From Siphonodentalium dalli (lineage: Eukaryota; Mollusca; Scaphopoda; Gadilida; Siphonodentaliidae), in contig CP136067.1 of NCBI GenBank assembly GCA_032622095.1, positions 48,709,899 through 48,773,898 on the forward strand: DNA of 64,000 nucleotides, written 5' to 3'. The translations under genes and the position numbers were made by a program. Shown here in pieces: positions 177 to 61,520 of this stretch. Within the stretch, counting starts at the first letter, position 1. Every line of letters begins with the position of its first letter. Under the pieces are notes generated by a model. It searched no databases and was not told where the DNA came from. It saw nothing but the letters and a program-made list of their open reading frames with translations.

Positions 177-3151
177 CTGTTTGGATTCGAAGAATTCCTT
201 ATACCCGCCATGAAGGATATAGATTTCAGGGTAAAACAGGTTCGGGTAATTCTCTGCGTTCATCTCTCTGTCCTTCTGTCGCAGGTGTCTGAGCCTAGAA
301 AAAATACATTCAGATATAAACCTTGGCTCACGACATAATCATAGCAATAACATATACATGTAGTGAACTGTATTGCTACGTGTATGCTTACATCCGATTA
401 CAAAGAACTTAATAAAATAATTAAATAATGCTCCAATTTCTCCTTTTTAAATTTCATGTTAAACTTAAAGGGGTATACTAAATCCGGCCATATATGGGAC
501 CATCTGCTTTTATATAGAATATAAGCATATAATTAATGAATTTGAGCCATGAATTAGTATGAAATAGTATAATGATAATGAATTTATGACTCCAGGCATG
601 AATTCATTATCATTACAATTACCCTGTCAAGGAGATAGTCCCATAAATTGACGGATTTAGTGTACAGTACCCCTTTAAGGTTTGTTAATTAATACTTTAA
701 TAAACTATGGTTGACATAGAATTGATACTTACATTTTTGGACCGCGTTCAGATGAGAACTCGCAGTGAAAGATGACGATGGTCCGGTGTTTGAGGGGAGC
801 GTCGCCCAGAAACCTCTTCTCGATCATCGCCTGTGTGTGGAGATTCTCAGCATCCTGCAAATAAGAGGTGACTTAGATACAGATCCTAAGACAATACAAA
901 CACTACACAATTCAACCGCAAAATCGGCCGATAGGAAAACTGATTATTATTTTAACAAAAATATATTTTTTTCGGGTATTGTCGATTGTTGGGTGGCTGA
1001 ATTTAGATTATTGACACAAACCACCATTAAGGGTGATACCATACATCTGAATTGATATTCTGAGCGTGTTACAAATTTTATTATTGGACTCATCAACAAA
1101 CAAAAAATCCATTAAGAAATAAAACTATACGGATATACATGTACAATATGTAATTTCAACATATATATTGATATTTGTTACGTAATAAAATAATGTTGTC
1201 AATCAACATAATGCCAATAAGATCATTTAACTTGGCATGATCCTCATTATTTTACAAAAGAAAGAAATCGATTGTTGTGTGAAATTGGCAAATATTAGAA
1301 CAGAGGTCACGTCGGTGACGCACACGTACCTGGATATGACCACCTTCGTACTCATATGGGTATCGACAGTCTACGACCACAAACTCGTCGACGCTGTTGC
1401 TGAATCGGCCTGACATCAAATCTTCCAACTGTAAAAAAAATGAATGACAAATTTCACTACCTATATGTTATAACTGGAACAAATCTACGATGAAGGTATA
1501 CGGTATTTGGATATGTTCCACGTTATTGGTGGACTCGTCCTATAAGAACACGGGACGTCTGGTGAAGAATTTCGAGACATGATTGTATACATCATTTATC
1601 ACACATCTTTCCTAACCTAACTACTTCATTATCTTCACCCATCAATCACACCCCACTCTTTCTCATCCCAACTCGCTTAACTATCCAAACATTTATGAGA
1701 AAACATAGAACTATATTAAAATTGTCGTCTTCTTTACCAAGTAGTTGTCTGTATTGACACGTCACACTTGGGGTAACATTTCAAGAGGAAATAATTTGTA
1801 TCCCATCATAATTTGAACAGTTTGCTTTTCTATCAGTTTGAATTTCAGATATAGAAGGAAGTCCAGATAGTTGGGCACAAAAGCAACATGGGAACATTCA
1901 TATTACATTTATACGACAATCAAATACATGTATTGGAAGTCTCGATTATTGTATACATTAATCATTTGAAAGCACTCACTGTTTGTGGGGAGATGTACTT
2001 AAGATCCTTGTGCCGACCGGAGATGACATGGAGAGTGTGGGTCAGGGTCCCGTCACCAATCAGATCGTCGTTGGAGGTAATCGAGTTCAGAGCTTCTTTA
2101 ATTCTCACGTCGTCTTTGGCTGATTTCTCTACCAGGTGGCGTTTGGCTGCTGGTTCGATGATGTCACACTTATCAGCGATCTGGCGCTTCAGACAGTTGT
2201 CGGAGGATTTTGAACGCCCGAAAAGACATCGAACTGGTCTACGACAGATGGAAAACTGGAAGGGATATATATAGAACAGATATTTACTTGTTTAGATGTT
2301 TGTTTTCCAGTGGCTTAAATACAAAAATTCAACAAATAAAATGTGTGCGTATGATACTGGCAATTGCGTTTGAAGCATTGCAACGCATATATTCATGCTG
2401 AACTGTTTTGGTTTGGGTGGTGCCTGCAGTTGATACATGTATGACCGTTTGTATTATGTTCTTTATATATATATATTGTGTTCATATATACAATCTTCAG
2501 TAATGGAGGATAATTAAAGATATATATCATTGTGGCGTTCTTGGTTTACGTAATTTATAAATAACAATTACACGTACCTCAGACTTAGTTGGTGTTTCTG
2601 ATGGGAGAATCGAACAGAAACTACCCTCATGTTCGCTGATGTGTGCAGCAGTTGGTGTCTGGAAAACAAATTATATTGATTAATGTGGATATAATTAGCC
2701 ATATCAGTTAACATTTAAGTCAAGCAACTCAATTACTATTTCCTGTGAGCAGCATAATATGCCTCTTATACTATATATACAGCATAGACTAATGAAAGAA
2801 AATAGTCGAAAATATGCGAATAAAAAACATAACATAATTTGACCATGTATGTGCCATAATAGAAACGTATACAGGTTCATTACTGTGGTTGCTTTAAAAT
2901 TTTCACATAAACCGAACTGACGAAATAATTTGTGATCGATTCCTTAATACTGCTCTTAAATAAGCACAATGTTTAAACTGAACAATTTTCTCTAAATTAC
3001 GGATAATAGGTCCTTATAAATCACGTTTGTACGAGTTGGCAATTTCTCCTGCTCTAATCCTGCTTACCTCTACGTCTATACCGCTATCTCTGGACGACTC
3101 ATCGACTTGAAGCTTGAAGTCACAAGGGCTCAACAGCTGGATGATATCCAT
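177..3151 (-). CDS. cdc25: CDC25-type phosphatase, copy A (C-terminal exon outside window)
   Basis: This is a dual-specificity phosphatase of the CDC25 family, which removes inhibitory phosphates from CDK1/2 to drive S and M phase. Minus-strand exons with GT-AG borders are 3068-3184 (exon 2, ATG at 3151), 2578-2658, 1980-2255, 1330-1428, 733-854 and 177-294. Exon 8 would lie left of base 1. All splice phases are 0 except exon 6/7, which is phase 2. Family motifs appear in order: LIGDGT and KYISP (exon 4), [12 protein letters not shown] (exon 5), active site HCEFSSER (HCX5R, exon 6), and [15 protein letters not shown] (exon 7). The visible part is unbroken and matches copies B and C. Family identity is very secure. 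The start is inferred: the ATG is the first one downstream of the putative TATA/start site and sits in ACCATGG. Confidence 0.88.
465..678. mobile_element. TTAA-flanked piggyBac-like MITE in intron 6 of copy A
   Basis: A 206-bp element (469-674) sits between TTAA duplications at 465-468 and 675-678. Its ends are inverted repeats: AGGGGTA..TACTAAATCC on the left and the complement of AGGGGTACTGTACACTAAAT on the right; the left arm lacks five bases. The inner arms also pair, including a 15-bp perfect match between 570-584 and 601-615. It has no coding capacity. TTAA target duplication is typical of piggyBac; assignment to that superfamily is inference. Confidence 0.7.
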
Positions 3152-3706
3152 GGTATCGTCTATGTCGAAAGTGATGTTAGGAATCTGAAAGAAAAATGGT
3201 TTCAATTAATTAATTGAAGCAAAAGAGGAATCATTGACGTCTAGCTAGGATATCAACCTACTGTCAGCTACACTATCTATAGATATAGGCAATATATCAC
3301 CAACACTAATATTGCGGGAATTTGATCTATTCTGGTGATATTCTCCGATACGTTCAATTATTTGAAATATTTAATAAAACGCGGAAATATTCAGGCAACT
3401 AAAAATGTATTGGGCAATAAATTGTTGCCGCTAAATTCCATCACCTCGCTAAAGAATGTCAGATAATGAGCACACGCTACATGCCACTGATAAGATATAT
3501 TTGATCCAGTTTATGCGGTCGCCATGGGAATGATAAATGTAAGGGAATACACTATAACTTAAAATAGGTGTATCGACATAGGTGTATTCCCGGTTCGAAA
3601 TGTTAAATAATAGCATTAAGGCTCTGCAAGTACCAGTTTTGAAACATGTGAAATGAATTGAGGTAAACGGTAAAACTGAGAACCACGCGATGACGAGGAT
3701 ACTCAC

Positions 3707-3763
3707 AATGGGTTCAAGGCGAGAAGAGCGAATGAATAAAAAGTCCAAACTTTACTGCTTATA
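3707..3763 (-). promoter_or_regulatory. Promoter and leader exon 1 of copy A
   Basis: On the minus strand a TATAAG box (3758-3763) lies about 30 bp before a TTCATTC initiator-like site near 3733. The transcript would then read about 27 nt to a strong donor ATT|gtgagt at 3707. Exon 1 has no ATG. Its only open frame compatible with exon 2 meets a TAA just upstream, so it is most simply 5' UTR. The TATA box, the spacing and the donor recur in every copy that keeps its 5' end. The start site itself is inferred. Confidence 0.5.
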
Positions 3764-6073: not shown

Positions 6074-7072
6074 GCGGTCGCCATGCGAATGATAAATGTA
6101 AGGGAATACATTATAACTTAAAATATGTGTATCGACATAGAGATGTATTCCCGGTTCGAAATGTTAAATAATAGCATTAAGGCTCTGCAAGTACCAGTTT
6201 TGAAACATGTGAAATGAATTGAGGTACTCGGTAAAACTGAGAACCACGCGATGACGAGGATACTCACAATGGGTTCAAGGCGAGAAGGGCGAATGAATAA
6301 AACGTCCAAACTTTACTGCTTATAAAGTAAGGGACAGAATGTTGTTTATTTTGAGAATACGTGAGAAACGATTCGCGATGTTGTATGATAACAAATTGTA
6401 ACACATCGGGATCGCGTGGCAGAATGTTGCTCACGGATACGGCTGCCTATCACAACTCGGGGCGTTAAAATTACACAGATAGTGGGAAGAGCAGCGTCGA
6501 TGCGCATGACAACGTGTTAGATTTCCTGTTCAGAAGTGTTTAGTCGCATGTTTGGAAGTGAGATAACAGTTTGTGAGTGAAATTCAGCCCAGGAACTGTC
6601 AAATATATTGTTTACAACTTATCAACTATGTCAGCAATTTGGTCAGTCGGTGGTTTGCTGAAGATGAATAACGATCAATGGGGGATCACGAACCTCCCGA
6701 AGGCCCACAAACTATACTAACACTGACAAGGCGCTTCTTTTTTTTATCTTCTGAAGAAACATCGGGACCTAACTTTTCTAAATTCTATGAATTGAACAGA
6801 TCTGTCTCGGGCACATATAGTCCGGACAATGTACGTAACGTATGTTACCACCAATGTGATGAGAATTCAACAATCTTATGCGACCTACTAACTTCAATAT
6901 GATACTCTTTATTCCGGCCTCCACGGTGAAGAGCAGTGAGGTTTTTTAATTGTATCTTGTTTCTATTAACAAATTCGTGGAAAGTATATATAAACAGCAA
7001 AAACCCAAATGTAAAAGACAAACCCAAATGTAAAAGTCAATTAGCACATATCAGCGCGGAACGGGTGTTGTA
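6074..7072 (-). repeat. Detached duplicate of promoter, exon 1 and block P
   Basis: This stretch repeats 3516-4500 but is not followed by exons 2-8. It includes a TATAAG box at 6319-6324, leader exon 1 at about 6268-6294 and the gtgagt donor. It could be an alternative upstream promoter and first exon for copy A, or a duplication remnant. The B-C and C-D spacers lack it. Confidence 0.7.
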
Positions 7073-8807: not shown

Positions 8808-8910
8808 CTGAGAGTTACAATAAAAACAATCTAAAACGATTATCTCGATCCTGACCATGAAGCGAGGAAACCATACATGCATCAATTTAATGGATCTGGT
8901 TGAATTCTCC

Positions 8911-15480: not shown

Positions 15481-15538
<58 letters not shown>

Positions 15539-18380: not shown

Positions 18381-18457
18381 ACAGGACTTCCGGTCGTGGA
18401 GAAAATCACACTCTGGGCTAGACGAGGTCATGGGTTCGAACTTCGAACAAATACTAT

Positions 18458-19127: not shown

Positions 19128-22100
19128 CTAGAATCTCAGCGACCTCTTCCTCTGACCGTTGGACCAGGACTTGGATTTGGCTCGGAAGTGACGTAGCTGA
19201 GATGAGTAATCCTGGTGCAGCATAGGTCGATATGACTGTGGGGTGCAGAGAGTCTGGGAAGAGTAATATATAGCAAATAAGAACACAATAATATTCACAA
19301 TTTCACGAATTATATGCAGAAGAAGTACTTGTTCGGGTGCTGAAACACCGTTGCATCGACAGTGGACTACATTTGTTGCAATTACTATACACATGCGTGT
19401 ATTAAACGTGAGCTTATTGGTACGATGTCTTGTCATCATAGTTCGTTAGGTACACGTACAGCGTTGAAACGAATTTCGAAAATGTAGTGAAACAAAACGC
19501 ACCTGTTTGGATTCGAAGAATTCCTTATACCCGCCATGAAGGATATAGATTTCAGGGTAAAACAGGTTCGGGTAATTCTCTGCGTTCATCTCTCTGTCCT
19601 TCTGTCGCAGGTGTCTGAGCCTAGAAAAAATACATTCAGATATAAACCTTGGCTCACGACATAATCATAGCAATAACATATACATGTAGTGAACTGTATT
19701 GCTACGTGTATGCTTACATCCGATTACAAAGAACTTAATAAAATAATTAAATAATGCTCCAATTTCTCCTTTTTAAATTTCATGTTAAACTTAAAGGGGT
19801 ATACTAAATCCGGCCATATATGGGACCATCTGCTTTTATATAGAATATAAGCATATAATTAATGAATTTGAGCCATGAATTAGTATGAAATAGTATAATG
19901 ATAATGAATTTATGACTCCAGGCATGAATTCATTATCATTACAATTACCCTGTCAAGGAGATAGTCCCATAAATTGACGGATTTAGTGTACAGTACCCCT
20001 TTAAGGTTTGTTAATTAATACTTTAATAAACTATGGTTGACATAGAATTGATACTTACATTTTTGGACCGCGTTCAGATGAGAACTCGCAGTGAAAGATG
20101 ACGATGGTCCGGTGTTTGAGGGGAGCGTCGCCCAGAAACCTCTTCTCGATCATCGCCTGTGTGTGGAGATTCTCAGCATCCTGCAAATAAGAGGTGACTT
20201 AGATACAGATCCTAAGACAATACAAACACTACACAATTCAACCGCAAAATCGGCCGATAGGAAAACTGATTATTATTTTAACAAAAATATAATTTTTTCG
20301 GGTATTGTCGATTGTTGGGTGGCTGAATTTAGATTATTGACACAAACCACCATTAAGGGTGATACCATACATCTGAATTGATATTCTGAGCGTGTTACAA
20401 ATTTTATTATTGGACTCATCAACAAACAAAAAATCCATTAAGAAATAAAACTATACGGATATACATGTACAATATGTAATTTCAACATATATATTGATAT
20501 TTGTTACGTAATAAAATAATGTTGTCAATCAACATAATGCCAATAAGATCATTTAACTTGGCATGATCCTCATTATTTTACAAAAGAAAGAAATCGATTG
20601 TTGTGTGAAATTGGCAAATATTAGAACAGAGGTCACGTCGGTGACGCACACGTACCTGGATATGACCACCTTCGTACTCATATGGGTATCGACAGTCTAC
20701 GACCACAAACTCGTCGACGCTGTTGCTGAATCGGCCTGACATCAAATCTTCCAACTGTAAAAAAAATGAATGACAAATTTCACTACCTATATGTTATAAC
20801 TGGAACAAATCTACGATGAAGGTATACGGTATTTGGATATGTTCCACGTTATTGGTGGACTCGTCCTATAAGAACACGGGACGTCTGGTGAAGAATTTCG
20901 AGACATGATTGTATACATCATTTATCACACATCTTTCCTAACCTAACTACTTCATTATCTTCACCCATCAATCACACCCCACTCTTTCTCATCCCAACTC
21001 GCTTAACTATCCAAACATTTATGAGAAAACATAGAACTATATTAAAATTGTCGTCTTCTTTACCAAGTAGTTGTCTGTATTGACACGTCACACTTGGGGT
21101 AACATTTCAAGAGGAAATAATTTGTATCCCATCATAATTTGAACAGTTTGCTTTTCTATCAGTTTGAATTTCAGATATAGAAGGAAGTCCAGATAGTTGG
21201 GCACAAAAGCAACATGGGAACATTCATATTACATTTATACGACAATCAAATACATGTATTGGAAGTCTCGATTATTGTATACATTAATCATTTGAAAGCA
21301 CTCACTGTTTGTGGGGAGATGTACTTAAGATCCTTGTGCCGACCGGAGATGACATGGAGAGTGTGGGTCAGGGTCCCGTCACCAATCAGATCGTCGTTGG
21401 AGGTAATCGAGTTCAGAGCTTCTTTAATTCTCACGTCGTCTTTGGCTGATTTCTCTACCAGGTGGCGTTTGGCTGCTGGTTCGATGATGTCACACTTATC
21501 AGCGATCTGGCGCTTCAGACAGTTGTCGGAGGATTTTGAACGCCCGAAAAGACATCGAACTGGTCTACGACAGATGGAAAACTGGAAGGGATATATATTA
21601 GAACAGATATTTACTTGTTTAGATGTTTGTTTTCCAGTGGCTTAAATACAAAAATTCAACAAATAAAATGTGTGCGTATGATACTGGCAATTGCGTTTGA
21701 AGCATTGCAACGCATATATTCATGCTGAACTGTTTTGGTTTGGGTGGTGCCTGCAGTTGATACATGTATGACCGTTTGTATTATGTTCTTTATATATATA
21801 TATTGTGTTCATATATACAATCTTCAGTAATGGAGGATAATTAAAGATATATATCATTGTGGCGTTCTTGGTTTACGTAATTTATAAATAACAATTACAC
21901 GTACCTCAGACTTAGTTGGTGTTTCTGATGGGAGAATCGAACAGAAACTACCCTCATGTTCGCTGATGTGTGCAGCAGTTGGTGTCTGGAAAACAAATTA
22001 TATTGATTAATGTGGATATAATTAGCCATATCAGTTAACATTTAAGTCAAGCAACTCAATTACTATTTCCTGTGAGCAGCATTATATGCCTCTTATACTA

Positions 22101-22478
22101 TATATACAGCATAGACTAATGAAAGAAAATAGTCGAAAATATGCGAATAAAAAACATAACATAATTTGACCATGTATGTGCCATAATAGAAACGTATACA
22201 GGTTCATTACTGTGGTTGCTTTAAAATTTTCACATAAACCGAACTGACGAAATAATTTGTGATCGATTCCTTAATACTGCTCTTAAATAAGCACAATGTT
22301 TAAACTGAACAATTTTCTCTAAATTACGGATAATAGGTCCTTATAAATCACGTTTGTACGAGTTGGCAATTTCTCCTGCTCTAATCCTGCTTACCTCTAC
22401 GTCTATACCGCTATCTCTGGACGACTCATCGACTTGAAGCTTGAAGTCACAAGGGCTCAACAGCTGGATGATATCCAT
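19128..22478 (-). CDS. cdc25: CDC25-type phosphatase, copy C (complete)
   Basis: Exons are 22395-22511 (ATG at 22478), 21905-21985, 21306-21581, 20656-20754, 20059-20180, 19503-19620 and 19128-19253 (TAG). The exons read the same as copy B, so the 301-residue product appears identical, with HCEFSSER and [12 protein letters not shown] intact. Differences lie in introns: one extra base after exon 4 and a 42-bp deletion in intron 1 that ends 15 bp from the exon 2 acceptor. The pyrimidine run before that acceptor is kept, but a branch point further out could have been lost. Otherwise the gene should work as B does. Confidence 0.91.
19791..20004. mobile_element. TTAA-flanked MITE in intron 6 of copy C
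   Basis: Third copy at the orthologous intron site, with both TTAA flanks kept. Confidence 0.7.
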
Positions 22479-22991
22479 GGTATCGTCTATGTCGAAAGTG
22501 ATGTTAGGAATCTGAAAGAAAAATGGTAGCTAGGATATCAACCTACTGTCAGCTACACTATCTATAGATATAGGCAATATATCACCAACACTAATATTGC
22601 GGGAATTTGATCTATTCTGGTGATATTCTCCGATACGTTCAATTATTTGAAATATTTAATAAAACGCGGAAATATTCAGGCAACTAAAAATGTATTGGGC
22701 AATAAATTGTTGCCGCTAAATTCCATCACCTCGCTAAAGAATGTCAGATAATGAGCACACGCTACATGCCACTGATAAGATATATTTGATCCAGTTTATG
22801 CGGTCGCCATGGGAATGATAAATGTAAGGGAATACACTATAACTTAAAATAGGTGTATCGACATAGGTGTATTCCCGGTTCGAAATGTTAAATAATAGCA
22901 TTAAGGCTCTGCAAGTACCAGTTTTGAAACATGTGAAATGAATTGAGGTAAACGGTAAAACTGAGAACCACGCGATGACGAGGATACTCAC

Positions 22992-23048
22992 AATGGGTTC
23001 AAGGCGAGAAGAGCGAATGAATAAAAAGTCCAAACTTTACTGCTTATA
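22992..23048 (-). promoter_or_regulatory. Promoter and leader exon 1 of copy C
   Basis: TATAAG at 23043-23048, inferred start near 23018, donor at 22992. Confidence 0.5.
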
Positions 23049-24364
23049 AAGTATATAAGGGACAGAATGTTGTTTATTTTGAGAATACGTGAGAAACTAT
23101 TCGCGATGTTGTATGATAACAAATTGTAACACATCGGGATCGCGTGGCAGAACGTTGCTCACGGATACGGCTGCCTATCACAACTCGGGGCGTTAAAATT
23201 ACACAGATAGTGGGAAGAGCAGCGTCGATGCGCATGACAACGTGTTAGATTTCCTGTTCAGAAGTGTTTAGTCGAATATTTGGAAGTGAGCTAACAGTTT
23301 GTGAGTGAAATTCAGCCCAGGAACTGTCAACTATATTGTTTACAACTTATCAACTATGTTAGCAATTTGGTCAGTCGGTGATTTGCTGAAGATGAATAAC
23401 GACCAATGTGGGGATCACGAACCTCACGAAGGCCCACAAAATATATTAACACCGACACGGTGCTATTGTTTTTGTTATCTGCTGAAGAAACACCGGGACC
23501 TAAGTTTTCTCAATTATATGAATTGAACAAATCTGTATCGGGCACATATATTCCGGACAATGTCTGTTACCACCAATGTGATGAGAATTCAACAATCTTA
23601 TGCGACCTACTAACTTCAATATAATACTCTTTAGTCCGACCTCTACGATGAAGAGCAGTGAGGTTATTGAATTGTATCATTTTTCTATTCACAAATTCGT
23701 GGAGAGTATATATAAACAGTAAAAAACCCAAACGTAAAAGTCAAAACCAAATGTAATAATCAATTAGCACATATCAGCGGCGAAAGGGTGGTGTAACTTC
23801 AAAAAAAATAGGTACACATTATTAGAATATCCTGTTTTGTGTAAACATAATTTTAAACATACCATATTGCAGATAGTTGAAAGTATTGAGTGTATATAGT
23901 TGAATATGCGTTTTCTACTGCAACAAAATGAAATTGAACTGAGAAGTTATCACGGAGCACCATTTTATTAACTACGTGCACACATCACGTGACATCAGTT
24001 GAGCTTGGCTTACCATATTGTGTAAGTGATTGAATTTCAACCATCAAAGAGTAACTTCGTAATATGTCCCTAGCCTAAGCGCGACTGGCGGCGTTTTCTC
24101 GCCTGATAGTGTGAAAGTCTGAGCCCTTTATTAATCACCGGAACTAACTTATCTGTTTCGTCGTTAACATTATCACTACAATACGTGCAATAAGACATTA
24201 TATGGTCGTGTAATAGAGGACGAGACGGTTAGCTTTTATTAAGTCTCCCCATCCAATTACTTTGACTCCCGTACATGTAAGTGATTTCAGTGAACACATG
24301 TGGTAAATGAGAAGATCACACCACCTATTCGACCATACCGGGCGCTTCACACCAAACTACTCTC

Positions 24365-33274: not shown

Positions 33275-33331
33275 AATGGATTCAAGGCGAGAAGAGCGAA
33301 TGAATAAAAAGTTCAAACTTTACTGCTTATA
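33275..33331 (-). promoter_or_regulatory. Promoter and leader exon 1 of copy D
   Basis: TATAAG at 33326-33331, inferred start near 33301, donor at 33275. Unlike A, B, C and I, the stretch between TATA and start reads TTTGAA, a match to the CHR element of cell-cycle promoters. Confidence 0.45.
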
Positions 33332-36467: not shown

Positions 36468-36961
36468 GCTGAGATAGTGATTTGGGGGGCTAACCCCGGG
36501 ATGGTCGAATAGACCGAGTGGTCTACTCCTTCACCCCTCATTTTTAGAGCTTTATTTGTAATGATCATAAAAAAAGGAAAAAAAAGATAGCAATTTTAAC
36601 CCTTTTTTTTGGTCTTCAATTTCTTTTTCTTCCTGGGTATGGTGGTTTTTTAGAGAGGTTGATGTTGATATCTTTATTGCTCTTTGATGTTCGAACGATG
36701 AGTTCTCCAGGCGATGGGTGATGCTGGTCAGGCCCTTGATAGATCTGGCGATCCCTCAGCAGGAAGAATTCATAGTTAGTGAGCTGGTATTTCTTTCCTG
36801 CTGAGTGGTGTAAATTGATCGCTGTCCTGATTCTCATATGTTCGTCATATAGTAGTTGCTGCTCTGCTCTGCTATGCGACGCCGGAACCTCTTCGTAATT
36901 CGGCGTCGCAGGGGCGGAGGTGGTACTTTCCGCCCCTGGTGGAGTCTGGCTTGTTGGAGTA
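36468..36961 (-). other. Foreign segment replacing the active-site half of exon 6, copy E
   Basis: This sequence is unrelated to other CDC25 copies. It joins block P text at 'aactgacaagt' and exon 6 at 'gcccaaaa'. The left end has GC-rich inverted repeats (AGACC-GAGT-GGTCT) and the phrase 'gtgatttggggggctaa'. On the minus strand a frame open for about 114 codons runs from the exon 6 border to a stop at 36616. It has a Pro/Thr/Ser-rich start and a basic end (KKPPYPGRKRN). I do not recognise the protein; a transposon fragment is likely. Confidence 0.5.
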
Positions 36962-39900
36962 GCCCAAAAACCTCTTCTCGATCATCGCCTGTGTGTGGAG
37001 ATTCTCAGCATCCTGTAAATAAGAAGTTACTTGTGACTTAGATACAGACCCTAAGACAATACAAACACTACTCAATTCAACTGCAAAATCGGCCGATAGG
37101 AAAACTGATCATTATTATAACAAAAATATAATTTTGTTCTGGTATTGACGATTGTTAACAATGGGTGGCTGCATTTAGATTCTTGACACACACCACCATT
37201 AAGAGTGATACAATAAATCTGAATTGATGGTCTGAGCGTGTTACCAATTTAATTATTGGACTCATTATCAGGAAAAAAACAAACAAAAGAAATAAAACTA
37301 TACGGATATACATGTACAAATGTGTAATACATGGATATGTAATTTCAACATATATATTGATATTTGTTACGTAATAAAATAATGTTGTCAATCAAAATAA
37401 TGCCAATAAAATAATTTAACTTGACATGATCCTCATTATTTTACAAAAGAAATAAATCGATTGCTGTGTTATATTGGCAAATATTAGAGCAGAGGTCATG
37501 TCGGTGACGCACACGTACCTGGCTATGTCCACCTTCGTACTCATATGGGTATCGACAGTCTACGACCACAAACTCGTCGATGCTGTTGCTGAATCGGCCT
37601 GACATCAAATCTTCCAACTGTAAACAAAAATTATGAATTTCACTATCTATATTTTAAAACTGGAACAAGTCTACGATGAAACTACGGCACTTGGATATTT
37701 TAGTATATTTGGTTTACTCATCCTATAAGAACACTGGACGTCTAGTGAAGAATTTCGAGACATGACTGTATACACCATTTATCACACATCTTTCCTAACT
37801 ACTTTATTATCTTATCCCTTCTATCACACCTCACTCTTACTCATCCCTGCACTCGCTTAACTATTCCAACATTTACGAGAGAACAGAGAACTATATTTGA
37901 ATTTCCGCCTTTACATTGTAGCTGGCTGTATTGAAACTTGAGGTAACATTTACATAGCATTTTTTTTTTATAAAAGCCATAGGCTTGTTATCCCGTCATA
38001 CTTTGAACAGTTTACTTTTCTATCAGTTTGAATTTCAGATATAGAAGGAAGTCCAGATAGTTGGGCACAAAAGCAACATGGAAACATTCTTATTACATGT
38101 ATGTCACAATCCAATACATGCATGTCTCGATTATCGAATAGATACATTAGTACGTTGAAATCACTCACTGTTTGTGGGGAGATGTACTTGAGGTCCTTGT
38201 GTCGACCTGAGATGACGCGGAGGGTGTAGCTCGAGGTCCCGTCACCGATCAGATCAACGTTGGAGGTCATGGAGTTGAGAGCTTCTTTAATTCTCATGTC
38301 GTCTTTGTCTGATTTCTCTAACAGTTGGCGTTTGGCTGGTGGTTCGATGGCATCACATTTCTCGGTGATCTGGCGTTTCAGACAGTTGTCGGAGGATTTT
38401 GAACGTCCGAAAAGACATCGAACTGGTCTACGACGGATGGACAACTGGAAGCGAAATATTTAGAACAGTGATACATGTATCAAAATATCATATAATTATT
38501 TGCTTAGCTGTTTGTATTTAAATACTTAAATTATAAGCGTAAACTTTGATGCCACACATATACTATAGAAATATGGCTTCTTGTCTTAGGGTGGATACAC
38601 ACATGCATGTAACCTCTGTAATTATCGTGTGTTTGGCGTTTTACACGGATAATACAGACAATGTAACATGTGTCCACTGACAACCCAATCATTGCGGACG
38701 TGTTGACCGCACTGAGTTCTAGTTCCAATTAAGGAATGTAGAGAAGCCGCTATCTTGGACCGAGTCGCCAGGCCACTTAAAATACTTGTTCGTGGTATAA
38801 CCCAGATGGTGGACGTTCTATTTAAATAATTATTAGTCCTCTCTTGATATTTATAGCAGTGGTGGATCCGGATTTCCCCGACGCAGGGGCTATATATATA
38901 TGATCCCGAAAGCTACCAGGCGGGGGTGGCTAACTCTGAGCTATTTAAGTAAAACATTATATTGTACCTTCTTGCGCAGATTATTCCGACCGATATACAA
39001 CTAAGTCCCTTAGCGATTTGAAGCTTTCAGGACCCCATGCCAAACAAGCATCATGGTCGAACATATTCTATATGAAGCCTGTATATGCCAGACGTGTCGC
39101 TTCTGGTGTTCGTGCATTAATAAAATGTCACACAGAGTTGACTAATTTCCGCATCCGTAAGAGAAGACGTGTTTTGGACTGGCCTTAAATGTCCTGATAG
39201 CAGACAGTTTGACTTCGCTTATCACTACTCACTTGTCTGGCATGTTAACAATGAACGCTCGCAGATATTTAATGTTGTCAATTATTGGTGTGGCCATGTA
39301 AAATACATGTATTTTACACACAGACATTATATGCATACTGTGTGTATCCACCCTTAGGCTGCTGAAATGCTTTCCTAAATTGCTGGATAAACTGTATTCG
39401 TGTATAGGTTTCTTGGTGTTAATTGTCCGGCCATAATTTTAGCCGGTCCTATATGGTTTTTGTCAAATCTTATTAACCTATTAATGTGGCGTTCATTGTT
39501 TTCTTAATTTTAGAAATAATAATATAACGTACCTCAGACTTAGTAGGTGTTTCTGATGGGAGAAACGAACTGAAGCTACCCTCATGTTCGCTGATGTGTG
39601 CAGTAGTTGGTGTCTGGAAAACAAATTATATTCATTAATTTGGATATAATTAGACATATCAATTAAAATTTATGTCAAGGAACTCAATTACTATTTCCTG
39701 TGTGGAACATTCTGTGCCTCTTATATTATACATTATAGCATAGACTATTGAAAGAAAATAATCGAAAATATGCGAATAAAATACATAACATAATGTGAGC
39801 ATGTAGGTGTCATAATACATACGTTCGTGTTCATTACTGTGGTTGCGTTCGAATCTTCGCATAAAACGAACTGACGAACTAACTAGTGATCTATTACTTA

Positions 39901-40105
39901 ATACTGTTCTTAAATAAGCACAATGTTTAAACTGAAATTGTTTCTCTAAATTACGGATAATAGGTCCTTATAAATCACGTTTGTGCGAGTTGGCAATTTC
40001 TCCTGCTCTAATCCTGCTTACCTCTACGTCTATACCGCTATCTCTGGACGACTCGTCGACGTGAAGCTTGAAGTCACAAGGGCTCAACAGCTGGATGATA
40101 TCCAT
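36962..40105 (-). pseudogene. cdc25: CDC25 copy E, active site lost
   Basis: Exons are 40022-40138 (ATG at 40105), 39533-39613, 38169-38444, 37519-37617 and a 51-nt remnant of exon 6 at 36962-37012. Exons 2-5 are open and well spliced, but exon 6 stops after KRFLG and runs into foreign [11 protein letters not shown] and exons 7-8 are gone. Read through, the frame ends at 36872 after 29 unrelated residues, about 226 in all. Exon 5 ends GGHSQ instead of GGHIQ. It cannot be a phosphatase. A transcript could still encode the N-terminal region, so regulatory or decoy roles cannot be excluded, but decay is the simplest view. Confidence 0.82.
38586..39356. mobile_element. Harbinger-like MITE in intron 3 of copy E
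   Basis: A 765-bp noncoding element (38589-39353) lies between TTA duplications. Its ends are inverted repeats beginning GGGTGGATACACAC, with further pairing through atgcatgtaa. A 22-bp palindrome centred on acatgt is at 39297-39318. A 3-bp TTA duplication and GGG ends fit PIF/Harbinger; the superfamily call is inference. It is absent from intron 3 of A, B and C. Confidence 0.68.
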
Positions 40106-40666
40106 GGTATCGTCTATGTCGAAAGTGATGTTAGCAATCTGAAAGAAAAATGGTTTCAATTAATTATTATGGCAAAAGAGGACGTATTGACGTCAACTCG
40201 GATATCAACCTACAATCAACTACACTCTCGATAAATATAGGCCATATATTAATAATATAATAAATTTATACTGTGGGAATTTGATCTATTCTGGTAATAT
40301 TCTCCGATACGTTAATTTATTTGAAATATTTAATAACACGCGGAAATATTCAGGCAACTAAAAATATATTGGGCAATAAATTGTTGCCGCTAAATTCCAC
40401 CACCTCGCTAAAGAATGTCAGACAATGAGCACATGCTACATGCCACTGATAAGATATATTTGATCCAGTTTACGCGGTGGCGATGTGAATGATAAATATA
40501 AGGGAATACATTATAACTTAAAATATGTGTATCGACATAGAGGTGTATTCCAGTTCGAAATTTTAAATAATAGCATTAGGGCTCTACAAGTACCAGTTTT
40601 GAAACATTTGAAATGGATTGAGGTACACGGTAAAACTAATAACCACGCGATGACGACGATACTCAC

Positions 40667-40723
40667 AATGGATTCAAGGCGAGAAGAGCGAATGAATAAA
40701 AAGTTCAAACTTTACTGCTTATA
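40667..40723 (-). promoter_or_regulatory. Promoter and leader exon 1 of copy E
   Basis: TATAAG at 40718-40723, inferred start near 40693, donor at 40667; carries the TTTGAA variant. Confidence 0.45.
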
Positions 40724-43855: not shown

Positions 43856-44349
43856 GCTGAGATAGTGATTTGGGGGGCTAACCCCGGGATGGTCGAATAG
43901 ACCGAGTGGTCTACTCCTTCACCCCTCATTTTTAGAGCTTTATTTGTAATGATCATAAAAAAAGAAAAAAAAAGATAGCAATTTTAACCCTTTTTTTTGG
44001 TCTTCAATTTCTTTTTCTTCCTGGGTATGGTGGTTTTTTAGAGAGGTTGATGTTGATATCTTTATTGCTCTTTGTTGTTCGAACGATGAGTTCTCCAGGC
44101 GATGGGTGATGCTGGTCAGGCCCTTGATAGATCTGGCGATCCCTCAGCAGGAAGAATTCATAGTTAGTGAGCTGGTATTTCTTTCCTGCTGAGTGGTGTA
44201 AATTGATCGCTGTCCTGATTCTCATATGTTCGTCATATAGTAGTTGCTGCTCTGCTCTGCTATGCGACGCCGGAACCTCTTCGTAATTCGGCGTCGCAGG
44301 GGCGGAGGTGGTACTTTCCGCCCCTGGTGGAGTCTGGCTTGTTGGAGTA
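43856..44349 (-). other. Foreign segment replacing the active-site half of exon 6, copy F
   Basis: Same segment and same joints as in copy E, so it was copied with the 7.39-kb unit rather than inserted twice. Confidence 0.5.
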
Positions 44350-47300
44350 GCCCAAAAACCTCTTCTCGATCATCGCCTGTGTGTGGAGATTCTCAGCATC
44401 CTGTAAATAAGAAGTTACTTGTGACTTAGATACAGACCCTAAGACAATACAAACACTACTCAATTCAACTGCAAAATCGGCCGATAGGAAAACTGATCAT
44501 TATTATAACAAAAATATAATTTTGTTCTGGTATTGACGATTGTTAACAATGGGTGGCTGCATTTAGATTATTGACACACACCACCATTAAGAGTGATACA
44601 ATAAATCTGAATTGATGGTCTGAGCGTGTTACCAATTTAATTATTGGACTCATTATCAGGAAAAAAACAAACAAAAGAAATAAAACTATACGGATATACA
44701 TGTACAAATGTGTAATACATGGATATGTAATTTCAACATATATATTGATATTTGTTACGTAATAAAATAATGTTGTCAATCAAAATAATGCCAATAAAAT
44801 AATTTAACTTGACATGATCCTCATTATTTTACAAAAGAAATAAATCGATTGCTGTGTTATATTGGCAAATATTAGAGCAGAGGTCATGTCGGTGACGCAC
44901 ACGTACCTGGCTATGTCCACCTTCGTACTCATATGGGTATCGACAGTCTACGACCACAAACTCGTCGATGCTGTTGCTGAATCGGCCTGACATCAAATCT
45001 TCCAACTGTAAACAAAAATTATGAATTTCACTATCTATATTTTAAAACTGGAACAAGTCTACGATGAAACTACGGCACTTGGATATTTTAGTATATTTGG
45101 TTTACTCATCCTATAAGAACACTGGACGTCTAGTGAAGAATTTCGAGACATGACTGTATACACCATTTATCACACATCTTTCCTAACTACTTTATTATCT
45201 TATCCCTTCTATCACACCTCACTCTTACTCATCCCTGCACTCGCTTAACTATTCCAACATTTACGAGAGAACAGAGAACTATATTTGAATTTCCGCCTTT
45301 ACATTGTAGCTGGCTGTATTGAAACTTGAGGTAACATTTACATAGCATTTTTTTTTTATAAAAGCCATAGGCTTGTTATCCCGTCATACTTTGAACAGTT
45401 TACTTTTCTATCAGTTTGAATTTCAGATATAGAAGGAAGTCCAGATAGTTGGGCACAAAAGCAACATGGAAACATTCATATTACATGTATGTCACAATCC
45501 AATACATGCATGTCTCGATTATCGAATAGATACATTAGTACGTTGAAATCACTCACTGTTTGTGGGGAGATGTACTTGAGGTCCTTGTGTCGACCTGAGA
45601 TGACGCGGAGGGTGTAGCTCGAGGTCCCGTCACCGATCAGATCAACGTTGGAGGTCATGGAGTTGAGAGCTTCTTTAATTCTCATGTCGTCTTTGTCTGA
45701 TTTCTCTAACAGTTGGCGTTTGGCTGGTGGTTTGATGGCATCACATTTCTCGGTGATCTGGCGTTTCAGACAGTTGTCGGAGGATTTTGAACGTCCGAAA
45801 AGACATCGAACTGGTCTACGACGGATGGACAACTGGAAGCGAAATATTTAGAACAGTGATACATGTATCAAAATATCATATAATTATTTGCTTAGCTGTT
45901 TGTATTTAAATATTTAAATTATAAGCGTAAACTTTGATGCCACACATATACTATAGAAATATGGCTTCTTGTCTTAGGGTGGATACACACATGCATGTAA
46001 CCTCTGTAATTATCGTGTGTTTGGCGTTTTACACGGATAATACAGACAATGTAACATGTGTCCACTGACAACCCAATCATTGCGGACGTGTTGACCGCAC
46101 TGAGTTCTAGTTCCAATTAAGGAATGTAGAGAAGCCGCTATCTTGGACCGAGTCGCCAGGCCACTTAAAATACTTGTTCGTGGTATAACCCAGATGGTGG
46201 ACGTTCTATTTAAATAATTATTAGTCCTCTCTTGATATTTATAGCAGTGGTGGATCCGGATTTCCCCGACGCAGGGGCTATATATATATGATCCCGAAAG
46301 CTACCAGGCGGGGGTGGCTAACTCTGAGCTATTTAAGTAAAACATTATATTGTACCTTCTTGCGCAGATTATTCCGACCGATATACAACTAAGTCCCTTA
46401 GCGATTTGAAGCTTTCAGGACCCCATGCCAAACAAGCATCATGGTCGAACATATTCTATATGAAGCCTGTATATGCCAGACGTGTCGCTTCTGGTGTTCG
46501 TGCATTAATAAAATGTCACACAGAGTTGACTAATTTCCGCATCCGTAAGAGAAGACGTGTTTTGGACTGGCCTTAAATGTCCTGATAGCAGACAGTTTGA
46601 CTTCGCTTATCACTACTCACTTGTCTGGCATGTTAACAATGAACGCTCGCAGATGTTTAATGTTGTCAATTATTGGTGTGGCCATGTAAAATACATGTAT
46701 TTTACACACAGAAATTACATGCATACTGTGTGTATCCACCCTTAGGCTGCTGAAATGCTTTCCTAAATTGCTGGATAAACTGTATTCGTGTATAGGTTTC
46801 TTGGTGTTAATTGTCCGGCCATAATTTTAGCCGGTCCTATATGGTTTTTGTCAAATCTTATTAACCTATTAATGTGGCGTTCATTGTTTTCTTAATTTAA
46901 GAAATAATAATATAACGTACCTCAGACTTAGTAGGTGTTTCTGATGGGAGAAACGAACTGAAGCTGCCCTCATGTTCGCTGATGTGTGCAGTAGTTGGTG
47001 TCTGGAAAACAAATTATATTCATTGATGTGGATATAATTAGACATATCAATTAAAATTTATGTCAAGGAACTCAATTACTATTTCCTGTGTGGAACATTA
47101 TGTGCCTCTTATATTATACATTATAGCATAGACTATTGAAAGAAAATAATCGAAAATATGCGAATAAAATACATAACATAATGTGAGCATGTAGGTGTCA
47201 TAATACATACGTTCGTGTTCATTACTGTGGTTGCGTTCGAATCTTCGCATAAAACGAACTGACGAACTAACTAGTGATCTATTACTTAATACTGTTCTTA

Positions 47301-47470
47301 AATTGTTTCTCTAAATTACGGATAATAGGTCCTTATAAATCACGTTTGTACGAGTTGGCAATTTCTCCTGCTCTAATCCTGCTTACCTCTACGTCTATAC
47401 CGCTATCTCTGGACGACTCGTCGACGTGAAGCTTGAAGTCACAAGGGCTCAACAGCTGGATGATATCCAT
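44350..47470 (-). pseudogene. cdc25: CDC25 copy F, active site lost
   Basis: Exons are 47387-47503 (ATG at 47470), 46921-47001, 45557-45832, 44907-45005 and the exon 6 remnant 44350-44400. It is built like E, with the same GGHS change and the same break after KRFLG; the read-through frame ends at 44260. It differs from E by E-to-K in exon 4 (IKPPAKR) and a 23-bp deletion in intron 2 near 47301. Confidence 0.82.
45974..46744. mobile_element. Harbinger-like MITE in intron 3 of copy F
   Basis: Full-length copy (45977-46741) between TTA duplications, with the 22-bp palindrome at 46685-46706. Confidence 0.68.
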
Positions 47471-48031
47471 GGTATCGTCTATGTCGAAAGTGATGTTAGG
47501 AATCTGAAAGAAAAGTGGTTTCAATTAATTAATATGGCAAAAGAGGACGTATTGACGTCAACTCGGATATCAACCTACAATCAACTACACTCTCGATAAA
47601 TATAGGCCATATATTAATAATATAATAAATTTATACTGTGAGAATTTGATCTATTCTGGTAATATTCTCCGATACGTTCATTTATTTGAAATATTTAATA
47701 ACACGCGGAAATATTCAGGCAACTAAAAATATATTGGGCAATAAATTGTTGCCGCTAAATTCCACCACCTCGCTAAAGAATGTCAGACAATGAGCATATG
47801 CTACATGCCACTGATAAGATATATTTGATCCTGTTTACGCGGTGGCGATGTGAATGATAAATATAAGGGAATACATTATAACTTAAAATATGTGTATCGA
47901 CATAGAGGTGTATTCCAGTTCGAAATTTTAAATAATAGCATTAGGGCTCTACAAGTACCAGTTTTGAAACATTTGAAATGGATTGAGGTACACGGTAAAA
48001 CTAATAACCACGCGATGACGACGATACTCAC

Positions 48032-48088
48032 AATGGATTCAAGGCGAGAAGAGCGAATGAATAAAAAGTTCAAACTTTACTGCTTATA
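48032..48088 (-). promoter_or_regulatory. Promoter and leader exon 1 of copy F
   Basis: TATAAG at 48083-48088, inferred start near 48058, donor at 48032; TTTGAA variant present. Confidence 0.45.
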
Positions 48089-52442: not shown

Positions 52443-52916
52443 CTAGAATCTCAGCGATCTCTTTCTCTGACCGTTGGACCAGGACTTTGACTTGGCTCGG
52501 AAGTGACGTAGCTGAGATGAGTAATCCTGGTGCAGCATAGGTCGATATGACTGCGGGGTGCAGAGCGCCTGGAAAGAGTAATATATAGCAAATAAGTACA
52601 AAATAATACTTTCACAGTTTCACGAATTATATGTAGAAAACGTACTTGTTGAGGTGCTGAAACACCGTTGCATCGACAGTGAACTACATTTGTTGCAATT
52701 ACTCTACACATGTGTGTATCAAACGTGAGCTTATTGGCACAATGTCTTGTCACCATATTTTGAAACGAATTTCGAAAATGTAGTGAAACAAAACGCACCT
52801 GTTTGGATTCGAAGAATTCCTTATATCCGCCATGAAGTATATAGATTTCAGGGTAAAACAGGTTCGGGTAATTCTCTGCGTTCATCTCTCTGTCCTTCTG
52901 TCGCAGGTGCCTGAGC
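52443..52916 (-). pseudogene. cdc25: CDC25 copy G, exons 7-8 only
   Basis: Exon 7 (52799-52916) and exon 8 (52443-52568, TAG) are intact and in frame with the shared splice phases: [15 protein letters not shown], then [10 protein letters not shown] and the basic tail. About 150 bp into intron 6, near 53065, the sequence jumps to a copy of the F-G spacer ('tttattaatcaccgg'). Exons 1-6 are absent. It has no promoter of its own. It is a duplication fragment. Confidence 0.85.
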
Positions 52917-56161: not shown

Positions 56162-56257
56162 CTAGAATCTGAGCGACCTCTTCCTCTGACCGTTGGACCA
56201 GGACTTGGATTTGGCTCGGAAGTGACGTAGCTGAGATGAGTAATCCTGGTGCAGCAT
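56162..56257 (-). pseudogene. cdc25: CDC25 copy H, exon 8 fragment
   Basis: The last 31 codons of exon 8 and its TAG are present ([18 protein letters not shown]). The exon is cut after 'gcagcat', where the tandem-duplicated 3' flank begins again. Confidence 0.85.
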
Positions 56258-56472: not shown

Positions 56473-57520
56473 TACAAAGTAGCACGTTTTGTGAAACAAT
56501 ATATATTAACAATAATTTAGCGATCTCTTTACAACATATACATTTTATAAATAACAATAACAGTATCACAGCTAAGCTTGAAAACAAAACAAATATCTCA
56601 CACACTAAGCAGTTCATATATTGCTACCCAAATGACGTTTTTTTTGGGGGGGTTGTATTAATAAATAGTCAAGAAAGACATGTGACTACCCGTCAAGTAC
56701 GCTGAACTACGTCACAATGTCGTTAAACAGGGCTGAACATCATCTGAACGTCGAAAATGTACGCTGATCAAATCTTAAACACTTGGTGCACTGGTGTCTG
56801 AGAAATAACATGACAACAAATAACAAATAACAACAAACAACAGAGTAACAACAACTTGATGATGACGAACAGCTAGAATCTCAGCGACCTCTTCCTCTGA
56901 CCGTTGGACCAGGACTTGGACTTGGCTCGGAAGTGACGTAGCTGAGATGAATAATCCTGGTGCAGCATAGGTCGATATGACTGCGGGGTGCAGAGCGCCT
57001 GGAAAGAGTAATATATAGCAAATAAGTAAAAAATAATATTCACAGTTTCACGAACTATATGTAGAAAAAGTACTTGTTGAGGTGCTGAAACACCGTTGTA
57101 TCGACAGTGGACTACATTTGTTGCAATTACTCTACACATGCGTGTATCAAACGTGAGCTTATTGGCACAATGTCTTGTCACCATATTTTATTAGGTATAT
57201 GTACAGCGTTGAAACGAATTTCGAAAATGTAGCGAAACAAAACGCACCTGTTTGGATTCGAAGAATTCCTTATATCCGCCACGAAGGATATAGATTTCAG
57301 GGTAAAACAGGTTCGGATAATTCTCGGCGTTCATCTCTCTGTCCTTCTGTCGCAGGTGTCTGAGCCTAGAAAAAATACATTCAGATATAAACCTTCGCTC
57401 ACGACATAGCAATCACATATACATGTAGTGAACTGTATTGCTAGTTGTATGCTTACATCCGATTACAAAGAACTCAATTAAATAATGCTCCAATTTCTCC
57501 TTTTAATTTTCATGTTAAAC

Positions 57521-57692
57521 TTAAAGGGGTACTGTATACTAAATCCGGCCATATATGGGACCATCTGCTTTTATATCGAATACACGCATAAAATTAATGA
57601 ATTTGAGCCATGGATTAGTGTAAAATACACGTGTACTCTATGCACGATGCAAACAACATGGTAATTATAATGAAAATGAATTTAGTGTTTTA
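57521..57692. mobile_element. Decayed TTAA MITE in intron 6 of copy I
   Basis: Same decay as in D: left end AGGGGTACTGTATACTAAAT kept, right end cut back. This groups I with D rather than with A-C. Confidence 0.55.
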
Positions 57693-59437
57693 AGGTTTGT
57701 CAATTAGCCTATTCCATTCATATGTTAATACATTAATCAAATACGGTTGACATAAAATTGATACTTACATTTTTGGACCGCGTTCAGATGAGAACTCGCA
57801 GTGAAATATGATAATGGTCCGGTGTTTGAGGGGAGCGTCGCCCAAAAAACCTCTTCTCGATCATCGCCTGCGTGTGGAGATTCTCAGCGTCCTATAAATA
57901 AGAGGTGACTTAGATACAGATCCTAAGACAATACAAACACTACACAATTCAACCGCAAAATCGGCCGATAGGAAAACTGAGCATTATTATAACAAAAATA
58001 TAATTTTGTTCGGGTATTGACGATTGTTAACAATGGGTGGCTGCATTTAGATTCTTGACACACACCACCATTAAGAGTGATACAATAAATCAGAATTGAT
58101 AGTCTGAGCGTGTTACCAATTTAATTATTGGACTCATTATCAGCAAAAACAAAAGATACGGATATACATGTACAAATTTGTAATACATGTATATGTAATT
58201 TCAACATATATATTGATATTTGTTACGTAATAAAATAATGTTGTCAATCAAAATAATGCCAATAAGATAATTTAACTTGACATGATCCTCATTATTTTAC
58301 AAAAGAAATAAATCGATTGCTGTGTCATATTGCCAAATATTAGAGCAGAGGTCATGTCGGTGACACACACGTACCTGGATATGTCCACCTTCGTACTCAT
58401 ATGGGTATCGACAGTCTACGACCACAAACTCGTCGATGCTGTTGCTGAATCGGCCTGACATCAAATCTTCCAACTGTAAACAAAAATTATGAATTTCACT
58501 ATCTATATTTTAAAACTGAAACAACTATACGATGAAACTACGGCAACTGGATATTTTAGCATATTTGGTTTACTCATCCTATAAGAACACTGGACGTCTA
58601 GTGAAGAATTTCGAGACATGACTGTATACACCATTTATCACACATCTTTCCTAACTACTTTATTATCTTCTCCCTTCTATCACACCTCACTCTTACTCAT
58701 CCCTGCACTCGCTTAACTATTCCAACATTTATGAGAGAACAGAGAACTATATTTGAATTTCCGCCTTCTTTACATTGTAGCTGCCTGTATTGAAACTTGG
58801 GGTAACATTTACATAGCAATTATTTTTATAAAAGCCATAGGCTTGTTATCCCGTCATAATTTGAACAGTTTACTTTTCTATCAGTTTGAATTTCAGATAT
58901 AGATGGAAGTCCAGATAGCTGGGCACAAAAGCAACATGGAAACATTCATATGACATGTATGTCACAATCAAATACATGCATGTCTCGATTATCGAATAAA
59001 TACATTAATACGTTGAAATCACTCACTGTTTGTGGGGAGATGTACATGAGGTCCTTGTGTCGATCTGAGATGACACGGAGGGTGTAGCTCGAGGTCCCGT
59101 CACCGATCAGATCAACGTTGGAGGTCATGGAGTTCAGAGCTTCTTTAATTCTCATGTCGTCTTTGTCTGATTTCTCTAACAGATGGCGTTTGGCTGGTGG
59201 TTCGATGACATCACATTTATCGGTGATCTGGCGTTTCAGACAGTTGTCGGAGGATTTTGAACGTCCGAAAAGACATCGAACTGGTCTACGACGGATGGAC
59301 AACTGGAAGCGAAATATTTAGAACAGTGATACATGTATCAAAATATCATATAATTATTTGCTTAGCTGTTTGTATTTAAATACATAAATTATAAGCTTAA
59401 ATGCCACACCTACACTATGGAAATATGGCTTCTTGTC

Positions 59438-60204
59438 TTAGGGTGGATACACACATGCATGTAATCTCTGTAATTATCGTGTATTTGGCGTTTTACACCG
59501 ATAATACAGACAATGTAACATGTGTCCACTGACAACCCAATCATTGCGGACGTGTTGACCGCACTGAGTTCTAGTTCCAATTAAGGAATGTAGAGAAGCC
59601 GCTCTCTTGGACCGAGTCGCCAGGCCACTTAAAATACTTGTTCGTGGGATAACCCAGATGGTGGACGTTCTATTTAAATAATTATTAGTCCTCTCTTGAT
59701 ATTTATAGCAGTGGTGGATCCGGATTTCCCCGACGCAGGGGCTATATATATATGATCCCGAAAGCTACCAGGCGGGATGGCTAACTCTGAGCTATTTAAG
59801 TAAAACATTATATTGTACCTTCTTGCGCAGATTATTCCGACCGATATACAACTAAGTCCCTTAGCGATTTGAAGCTTTCAATACCCCATGCCAAACAAGC
59901 ATCATGGTCGAACATATTCTATATGAAGCCTGTATATGCCAGACGTGTCGCTTCTGGTGTTCGTGCATTAATAAAATGTCACACAGAGTTGACTAATTTC
60001 CGCATCCGTAAGAGAAGACGTGTTTTGGACTGGCCTTAAATGTCCTGATAGCAGACAGTTTGACTTCGCTTATCACTACTCACTTGTCTGGCATGTTAAC
60101 AATGAACGCTCGCAGATATTTAATGTTGTCAATTATTGGTGTGGCCATGTAAAATACATGTATTTTACACACAGAAATTACATGCATGTGTGTATCCACC
60201 CTTA
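59438..60204. mobile_element. Harbinger-like MITE in intron 3 of copy I
   Basis: Element 59441-60201 between TTA duplications; four bases shorter than in E and F, with the 22-bp palindrome at 60148-60169. Confidence 0.66.
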
Positions 60205-61463
60205 GGATGCTGAAATGCTTTCCTAAATTAATGATAAACTGTATTCGTGTATAGGTTTCTTGGTGTTAATTGTCCGGCCATAATTTTAGCCGGTCCTATA
60301 TGGTTTTTGTCAAATCTTATTAACCTATTAATGTGGCGTTCATTGTTTTCTTAATTTTAGAAATAATAATATAACGTACCTCAGACTTAGTAGGTGTTTC
60401 TGATGGGAGAAACGAACTGAAGCTACCCTCATGTTCGCTGATGTGTGCAGTAGTTGGTGTCTGGAAAAAAAATTATATTCATTAATGTGGATATAATTAG
60501 CCATATCAATTAACATTTATGTCAAGGAACTCAATTACTATTTCCTGTGTGGAACATTCTGTGCCTCTTATATTATACATTATAGCATAGAATATTGAAA
60601 GAAAATAATCGAAAATATGCGAATAAAATACATAACATAATGTGAGCATGTAGGTGTCATAATACATACGTTCGTGTTCATTACTGAGGTTGCGTTCGAA
60701 TCTTCGCATAAAACGAACTGACGAACTAACTTGTGATCTATTACTTAATACTGTTCTTAAATAGGTCCTAATAAATCACGTTTGTACGAGTTGGCAATTT
60801 CTCCTGCTCTAATCCTGCTTACCTCTACGTCTATACCGCTATCTTTAGACGACTCGTCGACGTGAAGCTTGAAGTCACAAGGGCTCAACAGCTGGATGAT
60901 ATCCATGGTATCGTCTATGTCGAAAGTGATGTTAGGAATCTGAAAGAAAAATGGTTTCAATTAATTAATATGGCAAAAGAGGACGTATTGACGTCAACTC
61001 GGATATCAACCTACAATCAACTACACTCTCGATAAATATAGGCTATATATTAATAATATAATTAATTTATACTGTGAGAATTTGATCTATTCTGGTAATA
61101 TTCTCCGTTACGTTCATTTATTTGAAATATTTAATAACACGCGGAAATATTCAGGCAACTAAAAATATATTGGGCAATAAATTGTTGCCGCTAAATTCCA
61201 CCACCTCGCTAAAGAATGTCAGACAATGAGCACACGCTACATGCCACTGATAAGATATATTTGATCCAGTTTACGCGGTGGCGATGTGAATGATAAATAT
61301 AAGGGAATACATTATAACTTAAAATATGTGTATCGACAGGTGTATTCCAGTTCGAAATTTTAAATAATAGCATTAGGGCTCTACAAGTACCAGTTTTGAA
61401 ACATTTGAAATGGATTGAGGTACACGGTAAAACTAATAACCACGCGATGACGACGATACTCAC

Positions 61464-61520
61464 AGTGGGGTCAAGACGAGAAGAGCGAATGAATAAAAAG
61501 TCCAAACTTTACTGCTTATA
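61464..61520 (-). promoter_or_regulatory. Promoter and leader exon 1 of copy I
   Basis: TATAAG at 61515-61520, inferred start near 61490, donor at 61464. Exon 1 ends ACT|gtgagt here, one base different from the other copies. Confidence 0.45.

Follow-up and report, generated by a model that had tools for sequence, protein, structure and literature searches.

A very large CDC25 multigene family, in which an eight-exon gene is repeated head to tail, is very probably present in the genome of Siphonodentalium dalli. We consider it probable that this is a birth-and-death family, many members of which are or recently were functional; that dosage is the purpose of the copy number is put forward more tentatively. 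Animals usually have one to three CDC25 genes; CDC25 sets the rate at which cells enter mitosis and is normally present at very few copies. The window, i.e., the whole stretch of DNA analyzed, comprises 64,000 nt of chromosome C7 (CP136067.1, positions 48,709,899-48,773,898, assembly GCA_032622095.1), and the genome used contains 2,226,750,531 bases in nine contigs.

A head-to-tail array of CDC25 copies

Exon searches of the window, with an approximate human CDC25B domain sequence and two window exons as queries, revealed eight copies or partial copies of CDC25, together with an isolated last exon and an orphan promoter plus exon 1, all on the minus strand (Table 1). Single exons matched this CDC25B domain at E values down to 2.4e-13 and the spliced 301-aa protein matched solved human CDC25B at 1.8e-62 over residues 116-298; together these values exclude chance similarity. 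An earlier note on this DNA had described a head-to-tail array of at least nine CDC25 pieces on a single strand, and this description holds: nine coding pieces were counted and the outer coordinates agree to within about 25 bases.

Self-comparison (E of 1e-8 or better, at least 60 bases) showed that 96.6% of the window bases recur within the window. The large repeats are all direct, giving the head-to-tail arrangement of a tandem family: 31522-42436 matches 38914-49794 at 99.0% identity, 1-6075 matches 10402-16478 at 99.97%, 9010-15529 matches 17941-24413 at 99.0%, and older direct pairs share 85-90% identity. No large inverted repeats or palindromes were found in the window, where only eight inverted matches of at most 143 bp each occurred; scans of the window for tRNAs and for Rfam families at gathering score were also negative.

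Among the eight copies, two have a fully open frame, a third is open wherever it is in view, a fourth is open but lacks e4, and the other four are broken or partial. Copies B and C are 100% identical in every exon. Copy A contains no stop or frameshift in its viewed exons, which follow the GT-AG rule, and its e8 is expected left of the window edge. Across the e2-e7 region, A and B show zero differences, while A/C and B/C each show two intron substitutions per 2195 sites. The two intact members of the earlier note are B and C, and with copy A the window may hold three. The exon-skipped member corresponds to copy D, from which in-frame exon 4 was removed by a genomic deletion (junction at approximately 31522, 3-bp microhomology GTA). 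Its frame stays open because e4 has 276 nt, leaving 209 aa with the active site kept; the resulting protein is expected to be inactive given that it lacks the beginning of the catalytic domain. Dead members were also correctly recognized: E and F are cut inside the active-site exon, with approximately 490 bp of other sequence starting where e6 breaks off (54 nt in), G retains two exons, and H is frameshifted.

Table 1. Positions of CDC25 copies, their exons and the CDC25 clusters (window coordinates unless given in Mb)
Feature	Position	Strand	Remarks
Copy A, e1-e7 in view	177..3758	-	100% identical to copy C in viewed exons
Copy A exons	e1 3758-3707, e2 3184-3068, e3 2658-2578, e4 2255-1980, e5 1428-1330, e6 854-733, e7 294-177	-	
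Orphan exon 1 with conserved promoter	6268..6319	-	96% to e1; no coding exon attached
Copy B, complete, open, 301 aa	10203..14159	-	Exon searches; CDC25B match E 1.8e-62
Copy B exons	e1 14159-14108, e2 13585-13469, e3 13059-12979, e4 12656-12381, e5 11829-11731, e6 11255-11134, e7 10695-10578, e8 10328-10203	-	
Copy C, complete, open	19128..23043	-	Protein identical to B
Copy C exons	e1 23043-22992, e2 22511-22395, e3 21985-21905, e4 21581-21306, e5 20754-20656, e6 20180-20059, e7 19620-19503, e8 19253-19128	-	
Copy C promoter, the 300 bp preceding e1	23044..23343	-	TATA-like TTTATAA
Copy D, e1-e3 (33326-32141) and e5-e8 (31037-29526)	29526..33326	-	e4 deleted in frame
Copy E, e1-e5 and first 54 nt of e6	36959..40718	-	No active-site loop, no e7-e8
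Copy F, structure as E	44347..48083	-	Duplicate of E; self-comparison and exon searches
Copy G, e7 and e8 only	52443..52916	-	Exon searches
Lone 3' part of e8 (31-126 of 126)	56162..56257	-	Exon search
Copy H, eight exons	56873..61515	-	1-nt insertion in e6 shifts frame before active site
C7 cluster, at least 14 e4 matches	46.86-46.99 Mb	+	Genome protein search
C7 cluster, at least 38 e4 matches	48.60-49.43 Mb	-	Includes gaps of 302 and 97 kb
C7 cluster, at least 7 e4 matches	127.86-127.90 Mb	-	Genome protein search
C6 cluster, at least 13 e4 matches	72.49-72.73 Mb	-	Genome protein search
C6 cluster, at least 22 e4 matches	74.03-74.43 Mb	-	Genome protein search

Gene structure and predicted protein

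The exon model was taken from copy C and consists of eight exons with GT-AG introns, i.e., a compact gene with a product of 301 aa. Judging from conservation, e1 is probably a short 5' untranslated exon behind the TATA-like TTTATAA; e2 holds the start codon (accATGGat), e4 encodes the linker and the start of the catalytic domain, and e6 is the active-site exon, carrying the 10-residue active-site stretch. The CDC25-type catalytic domain is complete, and the next matches outside CDC25 reach only an E value of 5e-4. Pfam listed Rhodanese alone for the 301-aa protein (E 1.7e-10, above cut-off), a match that points to the rhodanese-like fold of CDC25. The protein carries the active-site loop HCEFSSERG, and its HCX5R signature (HCEFSSER) is present in copies A, B, C, and D, missing from E, F, and G, and out of frame in H. 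The M-inducer N-terminal domain (PF06617) was not listed at an E value of 0.001, and the N-terminus spans only about 115 aa; this domain is vertebrate-type and is not known to be required of an invertebrate CDC25. A DSG motif near the N-terminus resembles what we take to be the CDC25A degron.

CDC25 clusters elsewhere in the genome

A protein search of the genome, for which 150 of 742 candidates were scored and the rows covering e4 were sorted by hand, extended the array well beyond the window. At least 94 e4 matches fall into five clusters (separated at gaps above 400 kb), at least 59 on C7 and at least 35 on C6, and only six of them lie in the window. The array of the earlier note is real, and its extent was understated. 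Among the matches listed, 90 of 94 contain no stop, and one of the four stops sits in a match that overruns the exon. All 150 scored rows, among the matches listed, lie on C6 and C7, and CDC25 may still occur elsewhere. Five Rhodanese matches in a Pfam search of the genome (on C9, C1, and C6) were without CDC25 exons in DNA or protein comparison; this search is no guide to the number of CDC25 genes, since the short CDC25 exons escape the model.

We retrieved the 30 best-scoring loci of approximately 3.3 kb each (L006-L035, of which L006-L008 are window copies A-C) and checked them for frameshifts, stops, in-frame losses, and splice sites. In their viewed exons, 24 of the 30 are lesion-free; frameshifts occur in L014, L017, L018, and L019, and e4 of both L015 and L016 lacks 18 nt with the frame preserved. 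Three additional copies were compared: L038 (C7:49.31 Mb) is open across e2-e8, L037 (C7:48.78 Mb) has lost 1 nt in e4, and L036, sampled from C6, has stops in e2 and in active-site exon e6. Flags in e3 and e8 of L036 may be alignment faults resulting from divergence. Because the loci were chosen by protein score, the sample favors open copies and low dN/dS. The window itself is an unpicked sample, and only B, C, and probably A of its eight copies are fully open.

Subfamilies and selection

The C7 copies form two subfamilies, alpha and beta, approximately 17% apart at synonymous sites, and the C6 family is saturated at such sites. Copies A, B, and C belong to alpha. With the C6 copy L036 as root, a tree of e4 sequences joined E, F, and H as subfamily beta; D and G, which have no e4, were placed with beta by their other exons.

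Nei-Gojobori counts for 13 pairs gave dN/dS values of 0.05-0.40 in 12 of them. Between B and L037, the ratio was 0.19 (dS 0.175, dN 0.033); of the 22.5 nonsynonymous changes, 17.5 fell in e4 and a single one in e5-e8. The ratio was 0.21 for B and H, 0.05 and 0.07 for the comparisons across chromosomes (B and L037 with L036, dS about 2), and 0.22-0.40 for the remaining pairs except B/L012, an alpha pair with a value of 0.71 on two synonymous and five nonsynonymous changes. Variants pooled within the subfamilies, with broken copies kept in, yielded 0.38 for alpha (16 nonsynonymous, 12 synonymous; p = 0.011) and 0.24 for beta (25 nonsynonymous, 28 synonymous; p = 6e-7). In a sample that favors open copies, these ratios show purifying selection on the CDC25 coding sequence.

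The promoter stretch is also more conserved than the introns between subfamilies. The 300 bp before e1 differ at 12 of 296 sites between B and H and at 10 of 296 between B and D, whereas the divergence of B from H is 9-16% in introns 2, 4, 5, 6, and 7; intron 3 was excluded from the alpha/beta comparison, given a length difference of approximately 750 bp and poor alignment (40%). Within alpha (B/L038), this contrast is nearly gone, with differences at 6 of 296 promoter sites compared to 71 of 2429 intron sites. Gene conversion could contribute to the conservation of both coding and promoter sequence.

Turnover of the arrays

Array units are 97-100% identical. L026-L029 are identical across 3294 bp, and within L030-L035 neighboring units show 0-2 base differences. 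Spacing is likewise exact: five copies lie 3609 bp apart (four successive intervals) and four copies lie 8705 bp apart (three intervals). Partial genes seem to make up the rungs of the 3609-bp ladder, since L026-L029 contain e4-e6 with no e3 in view. Identical units and exact periods fit unequal exchange, and the continuing exchange proposed in the earlier note gains indirect support from them, as well as from the truncated units. A mis-assembled repeat could mimic identical units, though not diverged ones, and the count of near-identical units could be over- or underestimated. Open and broken copies are mixed and close relatives are adjacent, the pattern of birth-and-death evolution.

Explanations for the expansion

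The unit of the family is a compact, promoter-bearing gene of eight exons, whose product joins a short regulatory N-terminus to a complete catalytic domain of the rhodanese type. Head-to-tail copies of this gene occupy at least five clusters, spread over two chromosomes. We propose that the arrays lengthen and shorten through unequal exchange, which would leave behind identical neighbors, exon-deleted D, truncated E and F, and the orphans. If several open copies are expressed together, copy number would provide much CDC25 in a short time and hence Cdk1 activation, CDC25 being the phosphatase that strips Cdk1 of its inhibitory phosphates; the most plausible settings would be the oocyte, the testis, or rapid embryonic cycles. 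The compact gene, shared promoter, and conserved catalytic exons would suit a demand for much CDC25 quickly, and a dosage role in the early embryo or germline appears the likeliest reason for the size of the family.

A mostly neutral segmental amplification, with one or a few working copies and the rest slowly decaying by-products of an unstable locus, seems unlikely to us. It would account for the five of eight window copies that are damaged or incomplete (D, E, F, G, and H), the frameshifts in L014, L017, L018, L019, and L037, and the stops in L036, and many units are too young for decay to have set in. However, it sits poorly with the near absence of stops among the listed e4 matches, with dN/dS below 1 both within and between subfamilies, and with the expansion of two separate families on two chromosomes. 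Those two families could also be read as independently expanded, with array length tuning the speed of Cdk1 switch-on in the germline or early embryo, or with a copy-number conflict between them; this elaboration is possible but doubtful. A related and still less probable idea is that germline conflict amplified CDC25 as a selfish or sex-linked amplicon, by a logic like that of Slx/Sly in mice. Rapid amplification of a regulator of meiosis and mitosis in several clusters, and potentially opposing families on two chromosomes, would match such a history. Nevertheless, nothing points to C6 or C7 as a sex chromosome, the window lacks large inverted repeats of the palindrome kind, and the protein is conserved rather than fast-evolving, exon 4 excepted.

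It is very improbable that the arrays are a smaller locus multiplied in the assembly through haplotypes or looped repeats. A mis-resolved repeat could give the exact periods and the units identical over 3294 bp, but copies differ by 3-16% in introns and stand in overlapping tandem periods, subfamilies and breakpoints differ, and the five clusters lie on two chromosomes, one of them oppositely oriented. The outcome that the earlier note named as fatal to its interpretation, a single gene multiplied by haplotype artefact, therefore fits poorly with two C7 subfamilies, a saturated C6 family, and five clusters. The reading that we prefer remains a birth-and-death family in which many copies work or did so until recently.

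Relation to known systems and significance

The array protein shares its catalytic domain, HCEFSSERG loop, and C-terminal tail pattern with animal CDC25 proteins (CDC25A/B/C; string, twine). It differs from them in being short, and the genes are present in dozens of tandem copies compared to the usual one to three of animals. Among open-licence PMC papers, we found no CDC25 arrays or expansions of this kind. Among insects sequenced by 2010, Cdc25 was duplicated only in the pea aphid and Drosophilids (PMC2826372). The pea aphid, in which mitotic regulators are duplicated, Cdc25 among them, resembles S. dalli in having a lineage-specific duplication; the passages considered describe no array of this size (PMC2826372).

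Another parallel is offered by the echinoid hbox12/pmar1/micro1 genes, reported as many near-identical copies with conserved coding sequence, early embryonic expression, and copy number that varies between individuals (PMC5370098). Both are regulatory genes in many near-identical copies; however, the echinoid genes are homeobox genes and the array genes encode a phosphatase, and the CDC25 arrays are known here from the sequence of one genome. Ampliconic germline genes (Slx/Sly, primate Y families) are similar in their high copy number and recent near-identical copies, but unlike them the CDC25 window is without large palindromes.

Dozens of open CDC25 copies break the expectation of dosage-sensitive, unamplified switch genes. 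The arrays offer a natural system for studying how gene dosage is tolerated or exploited in cell-cycle timing, and one in which dosage and genetic conflict can be tested against each other as drivers of gene amplification. In S. dalli, they may hint at a particular demand for CDC25 dosage or at a conflict over it.

Repeats and partial copies

Intergenic tandem duplications in the window have units of 101, 176, and 214 bp that match at 96–98%, with the 214-bp duplication present in three units. The longest stretch lacking a second copy inside the window lies between the alpha-subfamily copies and copy D.

Copies E and F, whose active-site exon (e6) is truncated, each join non-CDC25 sequence that, in another frame, resembles the end of a coding region followed by AATAAA; this is perhaps a piece of a transposon. 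Elsewhere on C7, five exons 4 (e4; loci L026–L030) form a ladder that seems to repeat a partial gene, since exon 3 is absent from view in L026–L029.

Features in the window and at other CDC25 loci
Feature	Position	Size or spacing
Short intergenic tandem duplication	8909-9112	
Same	25595-25945	
Same	49582-50008	
Same	53466-53889	
Same	63141-63567	
Longest stretch with no second copy in the window	26234-27274	1041 bp
Sequence joined to e6, copy E	36468-36958	~490 bp
Sequence joined to e6, copy F	43856-44346	~490 bp
Five e4 exons, L026-L030	C7:48857102-48871538	exactly 3609 bp
Diverged copy L036	C6:74265500-74271500	

Divergence between families

An entire second CDC25 family lies on C6; its diverged copy L036 retains the exon order and carries stops in exon 2 and the active-site exon. 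Between the alpha and beta subfamilies of C7, approximately 11–12% of bases differ in exon 4, compared to 2–7% in other coding exons. In all copies, exon 4 is evolving much more quickly than the remaining coding exons between alpha and beta.
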